Positions 2,585 to 9,416 of a stretch of 9,416 nt of DNA are shown here, in pieces. The translations under genes and the position numbers were made by a program. The notes beneath the pieces are model-generated. The model was not told where the DNA came from, did no database searches, and saw only the letters and a program-made list of their open reading frames with translations. Every line of letters begins with the position of its first letter. Positions within the stretch are counted from its first letter, which is position 1. Source of the stretch: a bacterium. Its GTDB lineage: Bacteria > JAJVIF01 > JAGGVT01. The stretch spans positions 1 through 9,416 of the forward strand of contig JAGGVT010000012.1 in assembly GCA_021157815.1 (NCBI GenBank), in the 5' to 3' direction.

Positions 2585-3382
2585 TCACGAATCGGATTCG
2601 AGGGATTTAGCCAGTTTTTCGAACGATTTGTCGCTCTCGCGAATAGCTCGGCGCTTGATGCGCCAGTAGCCGTCAATCAACTTACGCGCTTTTTCGGTTA
2701 GTTTCGAACCGCCGCCGTGAGCACCGCCTGTTTGGCGTTCTATCAATTTAAACTCAAGGCGTTCCTCCGCGCGTTTGATATCCCCCCATGCGTGCCTGTA
2801 TGAAATCCCCTCTTTTTTTGCGGCTTTTGCGAGGCTGCCTTGATTGTCTATCGCTGACAGAAGACGTGCAATGCCCTCGCCGAATACGGTTTTGCCATCG
2901 CGATTGATCCAAATTTTTGTCCTGATGCTCAACTGGCTGCCTGTGAGAAATTCGTGCTGGTTCTGAAAAATGCGAATAAGTTTCCGCCTTGAGCTGACAG
3001 GAATATCCAACGGTGCCAAAGCCGCCATCCAGCCGTCAGGATTGGCGTTATCGCCAAGCACAATGTCGGCCATGTATGCCAGTTCGTCCGCATCGCTTCG
3101 CCTGATTTCATTGTGCTGATTTAGAAAGATGACTACATCGGCATCAATATTTCCGATCAGGCGAGTTGCCTCCGCGACACAGTGTTTGAATTTGGCGCGG
3201 CTGGAATCAATAAATTCAAGCGCCTCATTGGTGTTGGTGAAATAGTTGTTCGATTTGGATTTTTTTGTTTTACCATGCCCAAGTTTCAGATTTACCGGCT
3301 TATCAAGCACATCGGTAATTTCAGATGCCAGTTTTGATTTGCCCACCTGGCTGGATGAACCGCCAATCAACCATAATTTCAT
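2585..3382 (-). CDS. P-loop domain fused to a ModE-type DNA-binding domain (probable Mo/W-responsive regulator)
   Basis: This 265-residue protein has two parts. Residues 1 to about 145 look like a P-loop NTPase: LIGGSSSQVGKSKLASEI (5-22) resembles a Walker A of the MobB/dethiobiotin-synthetase kind, though with Ser9 where the first Gly of GxxxxGKS is expected. ADVVIFLN (81-88) could be the Walker B strand. Residues about 150-245 match the winged-helix domain of ModE, with LLSAIDNQGSLAKAAKKEG (174-192), ISYRHAWGDIKRAEE (193-207) and ERQTGGAHGGGSKLTEKARK (215-234). The last 20 or so residues are charged. The TOBE/Mop molybdate-binding half of classical ModE is absent, so the P-loop part may provide sensing, or the protein may respond to a cofactor or nucleotide. 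It is the last gene of the operon and overlaps the previous one by 4 bases. Autoregulation of this operon is likely but its promoter is outside the window. Confidence 0.85.
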   Translation of the reverse strand: MKLWLIGGSSSQVGKSKLASEITDVLDKPVNLKLGHGKTKKSKSNNYFTNTNEALEFIDSSRAKFKHCVAEATRLIGNIDADVVIFLNQHNEIRRSDADELAYMADIVLGDNANPDGWMAALAPLDIPVSSRRKLIRIFQNQHEFLTGSQLSIRTKIWINRDGKTVFGEGIARLLSAIDNQGSLAKAAKKEGISYRHAWGDIKRAEERLEFKLIERQTGGAHGGGSKLTEKARKLIDGYWRIKRRAIRESDKSFEKLAKSLESDS

Positions 3383-3690
3383 TTAAAACACCCCAGCTGG
3401 CATCCGAAGATTTTCATCTCAAGCACGTTAGCTAATTTGCCGGCATTGGCGCGGCTGATTCCGAGTCTCTTCCCGATTGCAAACGCAACAGGGCACGATA
3501 TTCGTCCGCCGACATGCATGACTCCAGGCTCGCTTATCTCTCTTTCGGATGGGTTGTCGATTGTGATATCCGCTTCCGATGCTGAATCCACAATAATGTA
3601 TTCCAACTCAATCGATTTGTAGAATTCATTCAGTTTGTTGACAATATCATCCGGCAAGTTTGCAAAGTGTAATTTTGGTTTATCAGCCAT
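3379..3690 (-). CDS. Small Cys-containing protein with a helix-turn-helix-like segment, function unknown
   Basis: I do not recognise this 103-residue protein with certainty. Residues about 1-65 are acidic and include a possible beta segment (LEYIIVDSASEADITID, 29-45). Residues about 64-94 have a helix-turn-helix look: SCPVAFAIGKRLGISRANAG then KLANVLEMKI, with LGIS at the turn. The protein ends in GCQLGCFK, so cysteines fall at 66, 97 and 101, a pattern that could bind a metal or cluster or form a redox pair. The gene overlaps mobA-fdhD by 8 bases and the P-loop/ModE gene by 4 (ATGA), so it is made with them. The context makes a role in regulating or assembling Mo/W enzymes plausible. That is inference, and a structural zinc or iron site is an alternative. 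Confidence 0.8.
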   Translation of the reverse strand: MADKPKLHFANLPDDIVNKLNEFYKSIELEYIIVDSASEADITIDNPSEREISEPGVMHVGGRISCPVAFAIGKRLGISRANAGKLANVLEMKIFGCQLGCFK

Positions 3691-5044
3691 GTTTAATTCT
3701 CCCTGAGTGAGTGTAGATATTGAATCGCGCGCCACGGGCGAACCCGATAAGCGTGATTCCGTATTTGTCCGCAAGTTGAACAGCGCCATCTGATGGCGCT
3801 GAATGTGAAACAAGAAACGGCGCGCGGGCTCGAATCGCCTTTGTAACAACGCCGGTGGCAATACGTCCGCTTGTGAGAATCATTCTTTTGTTTTGTGGCA
3901 CTTCATTGAACCTTAATTCATGCCCCAGGATTTTATCGATAGTGTTGTGGCGCGCTATATCATCTGCGACATGAATAATCCTCTCGCCATCGCTCAATGC
4001 CGATGTGTGAACCCCGCCTGTCGAGTAGAACATGCCGCTGGTTTTCATAAGTGAGTTCATCATGTCGATTATCCTGTCCGCTCCGGCTTGAACATCAGTG
4101 CCAACAGCCTTGAAACAATCGGCGTAAGCGGGACGGATTGAAAAAAGCACATCCCCGCATCCCGGCGAGACAGTTCGAACCAGCGATGTCTGCTGGGGTT
4201 TGATTTTCTCTTTTGTGTTTACGGTTACAGTGTCCAGCTTGTCGTTGAATTCAATCGATGTGATTTTCTCGATGTCGTTAAGAACACATTCGGTATATAA
4301 GAAACCGACAGCGAGATTTTCAACATTATCCTTTAAAGCGTTAATGACAGCGACTTCATCATCGTTGGCCCAAATCCGTATGAACGATTCACGCACGAGA
4401 ATATCATTGATATCCCGGATGCCATCAATGCGGTGATAGCGTTGAATAGGGCGTTTAACAGTCACATCCAGATTAGCCGTGTTGTTTTTATCGGGCTTCA
4501 TATCATCGGGAGAATTGAGATTTAGAAAAGGCGTTTCATCGTTGAAAAATATTAGTTCGCTTTTATTGTTATGGCAGAAATCAAGCACACTGAGATTGCG
4601 CTTTTCAAGCGCGTTTGTAATCGCGGGTAGGATTCCTTTTTTATAAACAGCGCAAAGGGGATGCTCGCGGAGCGGAGTTGAAACATAGATTAAATCGGCA
4701 TCTGACTCGCAAGCTTTGTTAAGGAGAATCGCAATTTCATCGCTGGTTATTTTCGGCATGTCGCATGACAGCACCAGTATTGAATCCGCCTGTGTTTTTT
4801 TCAACGCGCTGTGTATTCCCGCAAGTGGGCCTGATTTTATATATTCATCCGGGATAGACTCGAAACCTATGGACGAAAATACATCGGTTTCATCGGTTGA
4901 TAAATATATATTATCTATTCCGGCTTTTTTTATTTGCTCTGTGAGATAAGCGACAAGCGGTATGCCATCCACTAGCACAAGGCTTTTAGGAGTGCCGAAT
5001 CGAGAGCTCTTTCCGCCTGCGAGTATGACTGCGGTTTTAATCAT
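3683..5044 (-). CDS. mobA-fdhD: Fused MobA-like guanylyltransferase and FdhD sulfurtransferase
   Basis: One uninterrupted 453-residue frame joins two enzymes. Residues 1 to about 185 are MobA, which transfers GMP to the metal cofactor. Visible motifs are LAGGKSSRFGTPKSL (8-22), SGPLAGIHSAL (71-81), LSCDMP (92-97) with the metal-binding Asp, HPLCAVY (128-134) and FLNLNSPDDM (173-182). Residues about 193-453 are FdhD, which passes sulfur from a cysteine desulfurase to the bis-MGD cofactor of formate dehydrogenase. Its motifs are GFLYTE (247-252), STGGVHTSAL (341-350), ADDIARHNTIDKILG (360-374), TSGRIATGVVTKAI (391-404) and SHSAPSDGAVQLADKYG (413-429). The sulfur-carrying loop reads SPGCGDV (293-299), so only Cys296 is left of the CxxC pair known from E. 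coli. The linker around 183-193 is short and polar. A MobA start at 5044 (8-base overlap with the previous gene) has an AAGGT site upstream. The fusion suggests GMP addition and sulfuration are coupled. Confidence 0.94.
   Translation of the reverse strand: MIKTAVILAGGKSSRFGTPKSLVLVDGIPLVAYLTEQIKKAGIDNIYLSTDETDVFSSIGFESIPDEYIKSGPLAGIHSALKKTQADSILVLSCDMPKITSDEIAILLNKACESDADLIYVSTPLREHPLCAVYKKGILPAITNALEKRNLSVLDFCHNNKSELIFFNDETPFLNLNSPDDMKPDKNNTANLDVTVKRPIQRYHRIDGIRDINDILVRESFIRIWANDDEVAVINALKDNVENLAVGFLYTECVLNDIEKITSIEFNDKLDTVTVNTKEKIKPQQTSLVRTVSPGCGDVLFSIRPAYADCFKAVGTDVQAGADRIIDMMNSLMKTSGMFYSTGGVHTSALSDGERIIHVADDIARHNTIDKILGHELRFNEVPQNKRMILTSGRIATGVVTKAIRARAPFLVSHSAPSDGAVQLADKYGITLIGFARGARFNIYTHSGRIKHG
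3698..3704 (-). promoter_or_regulatory. Ribosome binding site of the 103-residue gene inside mobA-fdhD
   Basis: AGGGAGA, seven bases before the ATG at 3690 and within the last codons of mobA-fdhD. It supports the short start over the open frame reaching back to 3861, whose extra residues overlap the fdhD part and look like out-of-frame translation. Confidence 0.65.
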
Positions 5045-5561
5045 CGTTTACCTTTTTTCCACATTCGCTGCTATCGCCTTTAACCGTTTCCAAAGCGTGA
5101 GGCAGGATTTCGAGAATTGCCTCAAGCGATTGGACAGCTCCTCTTTCGCTTCCGGGCACATTTACAATTATACTTTGCGCCCTGACTCCCGTGATTCCTC
5201 TCGACAGCCAGGCATACTTCGTATGCTTTGACCCCTCACTTCTCATGCACTCTGCAAATCCGGGGATTTCATAACCGATAACCGCACGAGTTGCTTCGGG
5301 AGTAACATCACGCGGAGAAATGCCTGTTCCGCCTGTTGTTATGATTAAATCAGCCCTGTCATCATATAGAAGTTTTTCGAGAGTTTGAACAATCGAGTTG
5401 TAATCATCCGGTATAATAACAGGCGGTTTGGTTTGGTAATGGGCGTCAGCCAACATTTGAATCAGCATTGGACCCACAGTATCTTTGTTTTCCCCGCTGA
5501 AACGGGAATCGGAAACTGTGAGAACGCGCGCGCTATAACGTTTCGATTTTGTCGCCGACAT
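5037..5561 (-). CDS. moaB: MoaB/Mog-family molybdopterin adenylyltransferase
   Basis: Members of this family (MogA, and MoaB in organisms lacking MogA) adenylylate molybdopterin, activating it for metal insertion by MoeA. The 174-residue product has the MoCF fold. RVLTVSDSRFSGENKDTVGP (12-31) forms the first strand and loop. TTGGTGISPRDVTPEATR (75-92) is the molybdopterin-binding signature, and VNVPGSERGAVQSLEAILEILPHAL (133-157) is the C-terminal motif. The last 15 or so residues are polar and probably flexible. MoaB and MogA cannot be separated reliably by eye, but as the only such gene here it is likely the adenylyltransferase. It starts inside the MOSC gene (29-base overlap) and ends 8 bases into mobA-fdhD. 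Confidence 0.92.
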   Translation of the reverse strand: MSATKSKRYSARVLTVSDSRFSGENKDTVGPMLIQMLADAHYQTKPPVIIPDDYNSIVQTLEKLLYDDRADLIITTGGTGISPRDVTPEATRAVIGYEIPGFAECMRSEGSKHTKYAWLSRGITGVRAQSIIVNVPGSERGAVQSLEAILEILPHALETVKGDSSECGKKVNDD

Positions 5562-5967
5562 TAATCTCACCTCCGACAACAACCGCCGCGAAGATGCCTT
5601 TGCTCATTAACGGCGGCTCGCCTATTTCAGGGCTTAACGTATATCCCGTGGGATTCGGCTTGCCTATTTGTGTTACCTCAAGTTCAATATTTCCTATTCG
5701 TATTCTCGAACCGACTGGAAGTTCAATAAGATTTATTCCTTCGGTTGTGATATTCTCAGCGAAGTCACCGGAGTTAACTTTGATTCCCCTATCAATGAAA
5801 CTTTTGTAAATCTCAATTCCAATCAGCGATACATGCTGATTTTCAGTTCCGGCGTGAGCGTCGCCTTCGACTCCGTGATTCTCAATCAATCGGATTGCAT
5901 CGACACTGGTTTTCGCGATTCCTTTATCTTTGCCTACACAAAGTCCCGCAACTTTTCCTGTTTTCAT
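5533..5967 (-). CDS. Stand-alone MOSC-domain protein
   Basis: This 144-residue protein is essentially one MOSC domain, the beta fold found at the C-terminus of molybdenum cofactor sulfurases and as small free proteins in Moco operons. Recognisable stretches are HGVEGDAHAGTENQHVSLIG (31-50), SGDFAENITTEGINL (66-80), LPVGSRIRIGN (83-93) and GIFAAVVVGGEINVGDKI (124-141). In the family, the segment after TQIGK normally carries conserved cysteines and a histidine (pattern like CHxxC...GxC). Here it reads PNPTGYTLSPEIGEPP (104-119) with none of them. The only cysteine is C10, in the first strand. A sulfur-carrier role through the usual cysteine therefore looks unlikely, and pterin binding or a structural role remains possible. 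It overlaps moaC by 4 bases and the MoaB/Mog gene by 29. The exact function of such small MOSC proteins is not established. Confidence 0.88.
   Translation of the reverse strand: MKTGKVAGLCVGKDKGIAKTSVDAIRLIENHGVEGDAHAGTENQHVSLIGIEIYKSFIDRGIKVNSGDFAENITTEGINLIELPVGSRIRIGNIELEVTQIGKPNPTGYTLSPEIGEPPLMSKGIFAAVVVGGEINVGDKIETL
5566..5574 (-). promoter_or_regulatory. Ribosome binding site of the MoaB/Mog gene inside the MOSC gene
   Basis: GGAGGTGAG, an almost complete anti-16S match, lies four bases before the ATG at 5561. It decides that start over the in-frame ATG at 5582. In the MOSC frame it encodes the conserved Gly-Gly-Glu of that domain. Confidence 0.8.
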
Positions 5968-6437
5968 AATTCATCCCGTACATATTCCCCGGATCGTCCG
6001 CCTGATTTTTTCAGAAGGCGGATTTTATCAATTGTCATGCTCCTATCCGCTGATTTGCACATGTCATAGATAGTCAGCGCCGCAATTGATACCGCAGTTA
6101 AAGCCTCCATTTCAACTCCGGTTTTAGCGTGCACAATGACAGTCGCGGTGATTTTAATTCCATCCTCGACTATTTCAAATTCTATATCAGCGTGGTCAAG
6201 CCCCAGCGGATGGCACATCGGAATCAGTTCACCTGTTTTTTTCGCAGCTTGAATCCCGGCGATTTTAGCGGTGGACAGCACATCCCCCTTCGGCATTTTA
6301 CCCTCGGTAATCTGATTGAGCACATCCGGTTTTATTCGCACAAAGCCATCGGCGACAGCGATACGTCTTGTTATCTCCTTTTCAGAGACATCAACCATTT
6401 TTACCTTGCCTTTTTCATCGATGTGGCTGAATTCCAT
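5964..6437 (-). CDS. moaC: Cyclic pyranopterin monophosphate synthase MoaC
   Basis: MoaC converts the MoaA product 3',8-cyclo-GTP to cyclic pyranopterin monophosphate. The 157-residue protein matches the family from end to end. It has the N-terminal HIDEKGKVKMVDVSEK stretch and KGDVLSTAKIAGIQAAKKTG (50-69), whose Lys50 corresponds to the catalytic lysine of E. coli MoaC. It also has MCHPL (74-78), TGVEMEALTAVSIAALTIYD (106-125) and the C-terminal RLLKKSGGRSG (140-150). Asp125 is the expected catalytic aspartate. The start has a perfect GGAGGT site overlapping the end of moaA. The stop overlaps the MOSC gene's ATG in an ATGA arrangement, so the two are probably translationally coupled. Confidence 0.97.
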   Translation of the reverse strand: MEFSHIDEKGKVKMVDVSEKEITRRIAVADGFVRIKPDVLNQITEGKMPKGDVLSTAKIAGIQAAKKTGELIPMCHPLGLDHADIEFEIVEDGIKITATVIVHAKTGVEMEALTAVSIAALTIYDMCKSADRSMTIDKIRLLKKSGGRSGEYVRDEL

Positions 6438-6439
6438 TG

Positions 6440-7411
6440 CTAACCTCCAATAGAGAACATGTAACTCGCGATATGATCAGAAACCCGACCGTTCTTGCGG
6501 CTGACAAAATCCTGAATCGCCGTTTTAAATTCATCATCGGATTTCTCAAGAAGCGGTCGAATTTGCATCGTTTTATTTGAATACAAACAGTATCTCAGCA
6601 TTCCCTCGCAATTCAAACGGATACGATTGCAGTGCATACAGAAAGGATTAGTAATCGCGGGGATAAATTCAAACGTCCAGTTGTTGGATGGAATCCGGTA
6701 TTTCGTTGTATGATTACCCGCATCAGAACTGTTGTCATCAAGTTTCTCAATATCAGAAAACGATTCTGACAAGCTGCGAAGAATGTCAGGCATTCTCGGA
6801 GCGTTTCCGTTGGAAATATCTATGTCTAACGGAAGGGAGGGCATCAACTCGATAAATCGAATCTGGAATCCTTCGCGATTCGCCCACTCAATCATTTGCG
6901 CTTCCTCGTCGAATCCGGGAAGCAGCACAGTGTTAATTTTAATCGGAGAGAATCCGATTTCTTTCGCGGCTTGCAGTCCTTTAAGGGAATCATCGAGATT
7001 ACCCACTCGTGTTATCCGATGAAACCTGTCGTGGTTCAATGTGTCGAGCGAGACATTAATACGGCGCATTCCGGCATCGAAAATAGGCCGCCCTTTTTCC
7101 GCAAGAAGGATTCCGTTTGTGGTAATCGCCAAATCGTCTATTCCCGGATTGTTCGCCAGATTATTAATCAGGAATTCGATATTGCGCTTGATAAGCGGCT
7201 CCCCGCCGGTCAGCCTGACCTTGTTTATTCCGAACAGGCTAACGAACCTGTTGACACATAAAGTGAATTCCTCCAGCGAGAGAACATCATCATGGGCGCA
7301 GAGTTTATAGCCGTCTTCGGGCATGCAGTACACGCACCTTAGATTGCATCTGTCGGTGATTGACAATCGAAGGTATGTAATTAATCTTCCCGCGCCGTCT
7401 CTAAGTTCCAA
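6440..7411 (-). CDS. moaA: GTP 3',8-cyclase MoaA (radical SAM)
   Basis: MoaA is the radical-SAM enzyme that converts GTP to 3',8-cyclo-GTP, the first step of molybdopterin synthesis, working together with MoaC. With the TTG start the product is 323 residues and begins MELRDGAGR, the usual MoaA N-terminus. The SAM-binding 4Fe-4S cluster motif CNLRCVYC supplies C22, C26 and C29, followed by LTGGEPL (68-73). The second, substrate-side cluster ligands are C258, C261 and C275 (CX2CX13C) with the conserved CNRIRL context. The protein ends in Gly322-Gly323, the flexible double-glycine tail that MoaA needs for activity. The first codons overlap the end of moeA by 11 bases, and the gene stops two bases before moaC. 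An ATG at 7465 would give an 18-residue extension with no family match, so I consider it less likely. Confidence 0.95.
   Translation of the reverse strand: MELRDGAGRLITYLRLSITDRCNLRCVYCMPEDGYKLCAHDDVLSLEEFTLCVNRFVSLFGINKVRLTGGEPLIKRNIEFLINNLANNPGIDDLAITTNGILLAEKGRPIFDAGMRRINVSLDTLNHDRFHRITRVGNLDDSLKGLQAAKEIGFSPIKINTVLLPGFDEEAQMIEWANREGFQIRFIELMPSLPLDIDISNGNAPRMPDILRSLSESFSDIEKLDDNSSDAGNHTTKYRIPSNNWTFEFIPAITNPFCMHCNRIRLNCEGMLRYCLYSNKTMQIRPLLEKSDDEFKTAIQDFVSRKNGRVSDHIASYMFSIGG
6443..6448 (-). promoter_or_regulatory. Ribosome binding site of moaC inside the moaA Gly-Gly codons
   Basis: GGAGGT, five bases before the moaC ATG. The same six bases are the last two sense codons of moaA (GGA GGT), which encode its essential C-terminal Gly-Gly. 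Confidence 0.85.
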
Positions 7412-8618
7412 AGTTTTCCCCCCTGAAAAGAAAGAATCGAACTTTCTCGCCGGATTTAACGACATATTTCCCCTTGTCGAAAATTGCGAACGCATTTGCG
7501 TTAACCACGCTGAAAATATCCGCTGAACCTTTGGATTCAACTGGCGCGATTCGCCATTCGCCACTCACATTTTCAACCAGCCCATGCGGAATAAACGCTC
7601 GGTTACTTTTGATTTTGAAATCACCAGTCGCTGTGGCTTCCATGAACTGTGTGCTGAAATCGGATTGACCCATCATGCGCCGTATCGTCGGGCCAACATA
7701 GAGTTCAAATCCCAAAAACGCTGAGACCGGATTCCCCGGCAGTCCGAAAATGAGCATTTCACCCAGTTTACCAAACAGCATCGGCTTGCCCGGTTTCTGC
7801 GCGACTTTGTGAAACAGCACCTCGACTCCGAGTTCCTGTAAAATGCCAGGAACCAAATCATAATCGCCGGCTGAAACTCCTCCTGTGAGAATGATTATAT
7901 CCGGGTTAAGTTCAATCGCGTCCTTGATAGTACCCTTGAGCGATTTTTTATTGTCAGCCGCCCAGGGGCGCCGTGATGCCGCACCGCCCCATCGTGTGCA
8001 TTGAGCCAGCAATCCATAGGAATTCGATTCCCTTATCTGTCCCGCTTGAGGTTTATTAGTTATCTCCACAAGTTCCGATCCCGTCGAAAGAAGCAGTACA
8101 GATGGCCGTGGATATACGGGAACAGTCGCGATTCCAACCTGCGCCAGAACAGCGGCTACCGGCGCGGATATTTCCATTCCCTTTTTCAGAATGACCTGTC
8201 CCTCTTTTATCTCCTCACCCTTGTATGCGATATTTTTCCCTGATTCAATTTTATCCTGCAGTTTCACAATGCCGGATGTTGGTTCGGATGTTTTCTCTAC
8301 CTGAATAACTGTATCGACTCCGGGAGGCACAGGCGCGCCGGTCATGATTTTAACAGCGTGTCCGCGTTTGACAGTATCATTGCTGAATTCACCAGCGGCA
8401 ATAATCCTGTCGATTTTCATCTCAGCGCCGATGCCGGAATCATCGGCGTGAATAGCGTAGCCATCCATAGTGGCCCTGTCGAACGGAGGTACGTTGATGT
8501 CAGCTGAAATGTCCTCGGAAAGAATCAAGCCGGCTGCGAAATCGAGAGGCAGCTTGACCGGGTCGAGTTTTTGAAGAGTATCGAATACTATTTTTTTTGC
8601 TTTGTCTATTGGTATCAT
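7401..8618 (-). CDS. moeA: Molybdopterin molybdenumtransferase MoeA
   Basis: MoeA inserts molybdate (or tungstate) into adenylylated molybdopterin, giving the active metal cofactor in the cytoplasm. The 405-residue product has the full family length. Motifs seen in order: PPFDRATMDGYA (44-55), the segment around IMTGAPVPPG (91-100), LSTGSELVE (177-185), GQIRESNSYGL (193-203), the MoCF-fold motif ILTGGVSAGDYD (243-254), KPGKPMLFG (275-283) and GLPGNPVSAF (292-301). A C-terminal beta domain (about 325-400) follows, matching MoeA domain IV. The start MIPIDKAKK is chosen because it has a Shine-Dalgarno site and matches the usual MoeA N-terminus. It begins 46 bases after the ATPase gene and its last 11 bases overlap moaA. 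Only one moeA is present here, so nothing shows whether a second, metal-specific copy exists elsewhere. Confidence 0.96.
   Translation of the reverse strand: MIPIDKAKKIVFDTLQKLDPVKLPLDFAAGLILSEDISADINVPPFDRATMDGYAIHADDSGIGAEMKIDRIIAAGEFSNDTVKRGHAVKIMTGAPVPPGVDTVIQVEKTSEPTSGIVKLQDKIESGKNIAYKGEEIKEGQVILKKGMEISAPVAAVLAQVGIATVPVYPRPSVLLLSTGSELVEITNKPQAGQIRESNSYGLLAQCTRWGGAASRRPWAADNKKSLKGTIKDAIELNPDIIILTGGVSAGDYDLVPGILQELGVEVLFHKVAQKPGKPMLFGKLGEMLIFGLPGNPVSAFLGFELYVGPTIRRMMGQSDFSTQFMEATATGDFKIKSNRAFIPHGLVENVSGEWRIAPVESKGSADIFSVVNANAFAIFDKGKYVVKSGEKVRFFLFRGENFGT
7418..7424 (-). promoter_or_regulatory. Ribosome binding site of moaA (supports a TTG start)
   Basis: AGGGGGG lies inside the end of moeA, six bases before a TTG at 7411. 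The site supports TTG over the in-frame ATG at 7465 or the far-upstream ATG at 7564. Confidence 0.6.
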
Positions 8619-8625
8619 TTTTTTT

Positions 8626-8631
8626 CCCCTT
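8626..8631 (-). promoter_or_regulatory. Ribosome binding site of moeA
   Basis: AAGGGG followed by seven A residues and then ATG at 8618. This decides the moeA start: the same frame runs open upstream to an ATG at 8714, but that would add 32 residues lacking MoeA character and overlap the upstream ATPase gene by 50 bases. Confidence 0.7.
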
Positions 8632-8664
8632 CGCCGGATAGAATCCAGCGCTCCCAGGGGCGAT

Positions 8665-9416
8665 TCATTCAAACACGTGAATCGCGACGGATTTGAAATG
8701 CGCCCAGACATCATCCCCGACTGTGCAGTTAAACTCCTTCACGGTACGGCTTGTTACACTTGCCCTGATTGAAAAGCCATCAGAACATTCAATGGTAAAT
8801 CCGACAAGATTCTTTCCGATTGCCTCGATGCGCCGAATCACGCCTTTAAAACTGTTCTGCGCGCTGGATGCTATCTTATCCTTCGATAACAAAACCTGGT
8901 TTGAGTTAATTGAAACCGTGTAAACGCGTTCATCGCGTGTTTTCCCCTGAGCATTATTTAATTCTCCCGCATAATATATCCGCAAGCCTGAATCCGAGAG
9001 AAATTCCCAGCCGTCCTCTATCGGCCTTGCTTTCAGGCGATACAGGTTTTCGGGAGTCCACGGTGATATTTTCCCATCCTGCAAAGTAACAATCCTGTCA
9101 GCGATATCATGCGCTCGGGACAACTCGTGAGTTGTGAATATCACGGATTGATTATCAGGCAGATTTCCGATAACGCTTTGGAGGATTTCATTGCTTTGAG
9201 TATCCACGTTTGCGAACGGCTCATCCAGGAGGAGAATCGGTGTTTTGTGAACAAGCGCGCGGGCAATCGCTGCCCGTTTTAATTCACCTGATGAAAAAGT
9301 TCTCGGTGACCGTTTTTTCAAATCCGCGATTCCAAGCATTTGAAGATATTTATCTATTAGAATAGCAAATGGTTTTAACCCTCTGCTGTTATTTTCCAAT
9401 CCAAACGCCATGTTAC
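8665..9416 (-). CDS. Molybdate/tungstate-type ABC transporter ATP-binding protein (5' end outside window)
   Basis: This is the nucleotide-binding subunit of an ABC importer, acting on the cytoplasmic face of the membrane to drive oxyanion uptake. The frame is open to the window edge, and the first in-frame ATG (9411) sits in an N-M-A-F-G-L stretch typical of the region after the Q-loop, so the true start and the Walker A lie beyond 9416. Counting from that Met, I see the signature region FSSGELKRAAIARAL (39-53; FSSGE instead of LSGGQ), Walker B ILLLDEPFANVD (59-70) and the H-loop FTTHE (92-96). Residues about 185-248 look like a TOBE/Mop domain, the C-terminal module of ModC/WtpC-type ATPases that bind molybdate or tungstate. 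A less familiar linker of about 65 residues lies between the two domains. The position just ahead of moeA supports Mo/W transport, but the metal cannot be told from the sequence. No permease or binding protein gene is in the window. Confidence 0.85.
   Translation of the reverse strand, partial: NMAFGLENNSRGLKPFAILIDKYLQMLGIADLKKRSPRTFSSGELKRAAIARALVHKTPILLLDEPFANVDTQSNEILQSVIGNLPDNQSVIFTTHELSRAHDIADRIVTLQDGKISPWTPENLYRLKARPIEDGWEFLSDSGLRIYYAGELNNAQGKTRDERVYTVSINSNQVLLSKDKIASSAQNSFKGVIRRIEAIGKNLVGFTIECSDGFSIRASVTSRTVKEFNCTVGDDVWAHFKSVAIHVFE

Follow-up and report, generated by a model that had tools for sequence, protein, structure and literature searches.

A MobB-like P-loop domain joined to a ModE-type DNA-binding domain in a molybdenum/tungsten-cofactor gene cluster

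MobB acts as a GTP-binding adaptor in the synthesis of molybdopterin guanine dinucleotide. In E. coli it is an accessory protein that binds GTP and assists guanylylation by MobA; in Methylorubrum its partner is MoeA1, and the tungsten formate dehydrogenase (FDH), unlike the molybdenum enzyme, depends on it; MoeA-MobB fusions are found in gamma-proteobacteria (PMC13197769). The known MobB fusions, represented in NCBIfam by PRK14489/14490 (MobA/MobB), PRK14491 (MobB/MoeA) and PRK14494 (MobB/FeS), resemble the protein studied here in having a MobB-type domain joined to a cofactor-pathway protein, but none of those models has a DNA-binding partner. On the side of gene control, ModE (TIGR00637; 1b9m/1o7l), which normally senses molybdate directly, shares with our protein, in both sequence and fold, a winged helix-turn-helix (HTH) with a long helix; this HTH is N-terminal in ModE but C-terminal in the fusion protein, which moreover lacks the TOBE/Mop molybdate-binding domains. 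The HTH-only ModE-type proteins (2ijl) are similar in having the ModE DNA-binding domain without TOBE, whereas the P-loop domain is present in the fusion protein only. No NCBIfam MobB/ModE model matched the fusion proteins, and no described MobB/ModE fusion was found in a literature search of open-licence papers.

The cofactor gene cluster and its last gene

The window, that is, the whole 9,416-nt stretch of bacterial DNA analysed, carries a tightly packed minus-strand Mo/W-cofactor cluster, which runs in the order ABC ATPase (with TOBE), MoeA, MoaA, MoaC, MOSC, MogA/MoaB, MobA-FdhD and a 103-aa Cys protein, and ends with the fusion gene. Listed from the fusion gene upward, the genes are:

2585..3382 (-), MobB-like P-loop / ModE-HTH fusion gene, 265 aa, ATG start
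3379..3690 (-), 103-aa protein with a C-terminal Cys motif (..ISC..CQLGCF); its gene and the fusion gene are coupled in translation
3683..5044 (-), MobA-FdhD fusion (MobA-like NTP transferase and FdhD sulfurtransferase), by Pfam/NCBIfam-type domain matches
5037..5582 (-), MogA/MoaB-like molybdopterin adenylyltransferase, by domain matches
5533..5967 (-), MOSC-domain protein, by domain matches
5964..6437 (-), MoaC, by domain match
6440..7564 (-), MoaA, by domain match, with the GTG start at 7564 as listed
7401..8714 (-), MoeA, by domain match
8665..9414 (-), ATPase of a molybdate/tungstate ABC transporter, including TOBE, truncated at the contig end; WtpC is its best NCBIfam match

The ATG of the fusion gene overlaps the stop codon of the upstream 103-aa gene in an ATGA junction, GTTTTAAATGAAA. 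G003, a genome from the same class but another family, shares both this junction and the gene order and carries a full-length homologue 52% identical to the fusion protein. The MobA-FdhD fusion of the window corresponds in G003 to separate, neighbouring genes for MobA and FdhD (L109: 7030-7824 and 7814-8389), and the 103-aa gene is kept beside the fusion gene there. For the 103-aa protein (3379..3690) no Pfam/NCBIfam match was obtained; over its last 41 residues (G-I-S-C..L..KI..C-x-L-G-C-F) it is 46% identical to the module that ends a MobB-like protein of genome G263, and because of this match it has the appearance of an independent Cys-rich module, perhaps of Fe-S type, of Mo/W-cofactor clusters. 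The listed MoaA frame, starting from GTG 7564, overlaps MoeA, which ends at 7401, by 164 bases. Since the radical SAM domain of MoaA starts only at residue 68, this overlap suggests that the true moaA start probably lies near 7400.

The ABC ATPase fragment matched WtpC more closely than ModC among the NCBIfam models (5e-35 versus 1.5e-25), and therefore tungsten may be the relevant metal, which we take as a lead only. An Rfam search of the window returned no element, such as a Moco riboswitch. E. coli-type ModE boxes were not found above a Markov null in the window and the homologous loci, the operon promoter lying beyond the contig end, and no inverted repeat near the fusion gene exceeded chance.

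The two halves of the fusion protein

The fusion protein is divided into a P-loop domain, a helical linker and a ModE-type half, with the following features:

3047..3382 (-), N-terminal P-loop domain, residues ~1-112, from the model, profiles and family alignment; no Pfam/NCBIfam model
3335..3361 (-), Walker A GSSSQVGKS, residues 8-16, from the sequence; G14 and K15 invariant in the family
3170..3172 (-), Glu71 at the end of strand 67-71, invariant; equivalent to the E of MobB 'EGxK' and lying in 'ESNS' in the family
2912..3046 (-), helical linker, residues 113-157, from the model; flexible at 150-153
2588..2911 (-), ModE-type winged HTH and long C-terminal helix, residues 158-265, from sequence and fold match

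In the C-terminal half, Pfam HTH_1 matched residues 173-232 above its cut-off (E 1.7e-8), and TIGR00637 ModE_repress matched residues 168-256 with E 1.7e-21 and 76.1 bits, which does not reach the curated cut-off of 98.5 bits; this cut-off is strict, as only 4 of the 192 genomes sampled contain a match above it. Among solved proteins, E. coli ModE 1b9m is the closest in sequence, and to it the full-length model was also matched by Foldseek (E 2.2e-6, rmsd 1.7 A over 101 columns), and 2ijl, a solved HTH-only putative ModE of Agrobacterium, is matched by sequence and fold as well. Pfam detected no TOBE in the fusion protein, and the sole TOBE genome-wide belongs to the ABC ATPase of the same operon. 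The absence of TOBE/Mop domains, which the original prediction had singled out, was thus real, but its weight as a remarkable trait was overstated, since HTH-only ModE-type regulators commonly lack TOBE: 33 of 51 ModE-HTH matches in the 192 sampled genomes lie in frames of ≤180 aa, too short for TOBE. With about two thirds of the sampled ModE-type HTHs in such frames, the missing TOBE is unremarkable by itself, and it is the joining of a MobB-like domain to ModE that is unusual. Equally overstated was the idea that the P-loop domain replaces the molybdate sensor by sensing a nucleotide, an intermediate or the metal.

For the N-terminal domain, AlphaFold gave a confident P-loop fold of ~112 residues (pLDDT 90.6, pTM 0.86) followed by a helix pair. 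Together with the HTH matches and a genuine Walker A motif (GGSSSQVGKS), this bears out the predicted pairing of a ModE DNA-binding domain with an N-terminal Walker A-like domain, and the doubt then raised, that residues 1-145 might not adopt a P-loop fold, is answered by the model. A second doubt, that homologues might carry this part as an ordinary dimerisation domain, found no backing either, as Walker A survives in the homologues examined. Across 14 family members, G14, K15, K33, G35 and E71 are invariant. The window copy is among the most divergent of them, with S replacing the usual T after GK and E-A-T replacing E-S-N, which would fit a P-loop domain no longer able to bind nucleotides, whose sole remaining task is to help an HTH-only ModE-type regulator dimerise or fold. 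Such a relic is highly improbable, however, because G14, K15, S16, K33, G35 and E71 are all kept in the window copy and the motifs are the same in the 52%-identical copy of G003. In the full-length model (pTM 0.59) a flexible hinge separates HTH and P-loop, and no coupling is visible.

Structure comparison of the N-terminal domain was less specific. VIA-align returned Z-scores of 8-10 to many P-loop NTPases, with SIMIBI members prominent: ParF 9.6, UreG 8.9, MeaB 8.9, MobB 1xjc 8.5 (rmsd 3.7 over 106 residues) and BioD 8.4. The comparison with MobB and other SIMIBI NTPases that had been proposed along with the original prediction therefore yielded a SIMIBI-rich set including MobB and BioD without a clear winner, MobB being inseparable from ParF, UreG, MeaB, BioD and kinases, and Foldseek gave generic P-loop matches with poor superposition. 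Single-sequence Pfam, NCBIfam and PDB searches left the domain without a family; residues 1-145 had no Pfam/NCBIfam match and no MobB match up to E 1, and the weak single-sequence matches favoured MobB no more than the CbiA/CobB families.

Kinship of the N-terminal domain with MobB

Because structure alone cannot separate MobB from other P-loop families, the identity of the domain was argued from sequence intermediates. Aligned directly, the window-family profile and a profile of 17 canonical MobB proteins matched around Walker A only. Bridging proteins were found at six loci (L021, L023, L024, L027, L029 and L044), in which the MobB motif GKDT..AGA occurs together with the window-family motif I-I-E-[GS]-[NT]-S...PD...[KE][PE]SA, and all 6/6 matched Pfam MobB (best 4.4e-9). 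By hhalign, the bridging set aligned with MobB at E 1.2e-18 over 88 columns, including GKDT..AGA, and with the window family at E 4.5e-26 over 118 columns, while with a control ABC ATPase only 18-19 Walker A columns were aligned. The bridge HMM found the window domain, which it had not seen, at 2e-5 (nominal 1e6 database) and canonical MobB at 6.6e-9, and the window-family HMM found the domain at locus L103, which lies outside both training sets, at 2e-11. Since the bridging profiles link the window family with MobB, it is well supported, through sequence intermediates, that MobB and the N-terminal domain are related, the latter being shortened and divergent. The 'MobB-like/ModE' option of the original prediction is borne out by this route only, as direct MobB profiles do not match the window domain.

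The likeness to MobB extends to the P-loop/SIMIBI-like fold, Walker A, a K-(x)-H region after strand 2, a Glu ending the Walker-B-like strand, and MobA, MoeA and FdhD partners in the same gene clusters. The differences are that the window domain has ~112 residues compared with ~165 in MobB and lacks the EGxK/PKIEV motifs as well as the GKDS..R..AGA block after strand 2, which is present in canonical MobB and the intermediates and absent from the window family. Direct membership in the curated MobB family (PF03205/TIGR00176) was considered and rejected, since its cut-off is unreached and the GKDS..R..AGA block is missing.

A small P-loop NTPase of another kind, resembling BioD, CbiA or UreG, with another ligand, for example molybdate/tungstate plus ATP, and no functional relation to MobB, would account for the missing core block, for the equally ready CbiA/CobB matches and for Z-scores to ParF, UreG, MeaB and BioD that equal or exceed that of MobB. 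We consider this unlikely, because the intermediates carry MobB GKDT..AGA and the family motif I-I-E-[GS]-N-S..PD..KPSA in the same proteins, and the fusion partners of the family, MobA and MoeA, are MobB's own. That the two halves are a MobB-related NTPase and a ModE-type HTH can be stated with high confidence.

Occurrence of the domain and the proposed role of the fusion

A census of several hundred genomes and the GTDB collection recovered about 20 members of the domain. As a stand-alone protein it occurs in Krumholzibacteriota, Syntrophus, Fibrobacter, Spirochaetales and the genus g33, and the stand-alone shortened family is seen in several phyla (L036:4001-4456, L038:4001-4456, L039:4001-4426, L040:4001-4450, L041:4001-4435 and L042:4001-4513). 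It is fused to MobA at L019/L037, L020/L035, L106 and L107, and to MoeA at L043 in Melainabacteria, where the fusion gene (L043:4001-5608, its Walker A masked as N in the stored record) adjoins moaA, moaC, MOSC and a tungstate-type ABC transporter. Most loci for which neighbours were read adjoin genes for FDH, FdhD, MobA, MoeA, MoaA or a Wtp-type transporter; no such neighbour was recognised in the stretch seen at L037, itself a MobA fusion, and at L039. No relatives were obtained when viral contigs were searched with the full-length protein. Through this family the MobB role is connected with formate dehydrogenase and with tungstate/molybdate uptake of the Wtp type; being currently unmodelled, the family is worth a Pfam/NCBIfam model.

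Next to this distribution, canonical MobB over the cut-off was absent from 13 of 15 domain-carrying genomes, compared with 17 of 35 MoaC-positive genomes without the domain (Fisher p 0.014, or 0.046 counting genera, several of the assemblies being incomplete). Canonical MobB is absent from the window genome (G000) and from G003, while G002, another member of their class, carries canonical MobB but lacks a window-type protein, and the fusion protein is the sole MobB-like protein found in the window assembly. These comparisons lend modest support to the view that the shortened family replaces MobB where canonical MobB is missing, a role that this unmodelled family may thus fill.

The reading that we favour, by a slight balance of probability, is that the protein is a regulator/maturation-factor fusion of its Mo/W-cofactor operon in which the state of the P-loop domain is passed to the HTH; taken by itself, the coupling of the halves into one regulator is about an even proposition. 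The P-loop domain would bind a nucleotide, probably GTP, and would take part in the MoeA/MobA steps of late cofactor assembly, since the same domain is found fused to MobA and MoeA, partners of MobB. Its nucleotide- or partner-bound state could then serve as a read-out of cofactor demand, be relayed via the helical linker to a dimeric HTH, and so control the transporter, cofactor or FDH genes from a putative target promoter. Such a 'trigger-protein' regulator would follow a logic comparable to that of BirA, and gene control and Mo/W-cofactor assembly may in this way be linked in one protein.

Independent action of the two halves is nearly as likely as a coupled regulator. In its fuller form, this alternative makes the domain the MobB substitute of the operon and the HTH either constitutive or governed by a separate Mo/W sensor (the ABC protein, for instance, or a TOBE protein on its own), with no signal between the halves, so that their joining only gives co-expression or puts cofactor assembly at the gene. 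Consistent with it, HTH-only ModE proteins are common, the hinge between the domains is flexible, canonical MobB is missing from the window genome, and the stand-alone copies and the MobA and MoeA fusions carry no HTH, so the domain works without DNA binding. We nevertheless regard this fuller form as less likely than not, as the domain has become joined to ModE HTHs in lineages outside any single clade, which suggests selection for coupling to the regulator.

Four such ModE fusions were seen, in at least three phylum-level lineages: those of the window, G003 and G262 and, with a bridge-type domain, that of G106 (L103). In the domain tree the ModE-fused copies need three changes, and a single clade was rejected for all four fusions (p 0.001) and for those of the window, G003 and G262 (p 0.035), with long branches counselling caution. 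Since the ModE-fused copies are rejected as one clade, the fusion probably arose more than once, as judged from this tree. A natural precursor is provided by one Krumholzibacteria genome, in which a separate ModE HTH gene stands directly before a stand-alone domain. In G262 the fusion gene lies between WtpABC and FdhD-FDH, and it is sporadic in that phylum, no second copy having turned up among the 74 phylum members searched.

As a broader and more tentative proposal, still short of an even chance, such proteins may represent a regulator class that senses Mo/W-cofactor assembly, through a GTP-, molybdopterin (MPT)- or partner-bound MobB-type domain, and not the free oxyanion, with the fusions built repeatedly in poorly studied phyla. 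As many genomes carry TOBE-less ModE-type domains, a fused or adjacent cofactor-assembly domain is a direct, testable candidate for their signal. The copy of G106, which belongs to another phylum-level lineage (L103:1471-2268, minus strand), keeps the MobB-like GKTDTRR..AGA in its bridge-type domain fused to the ModE HTH, and so shows the window architecture in a form closer to MobB.
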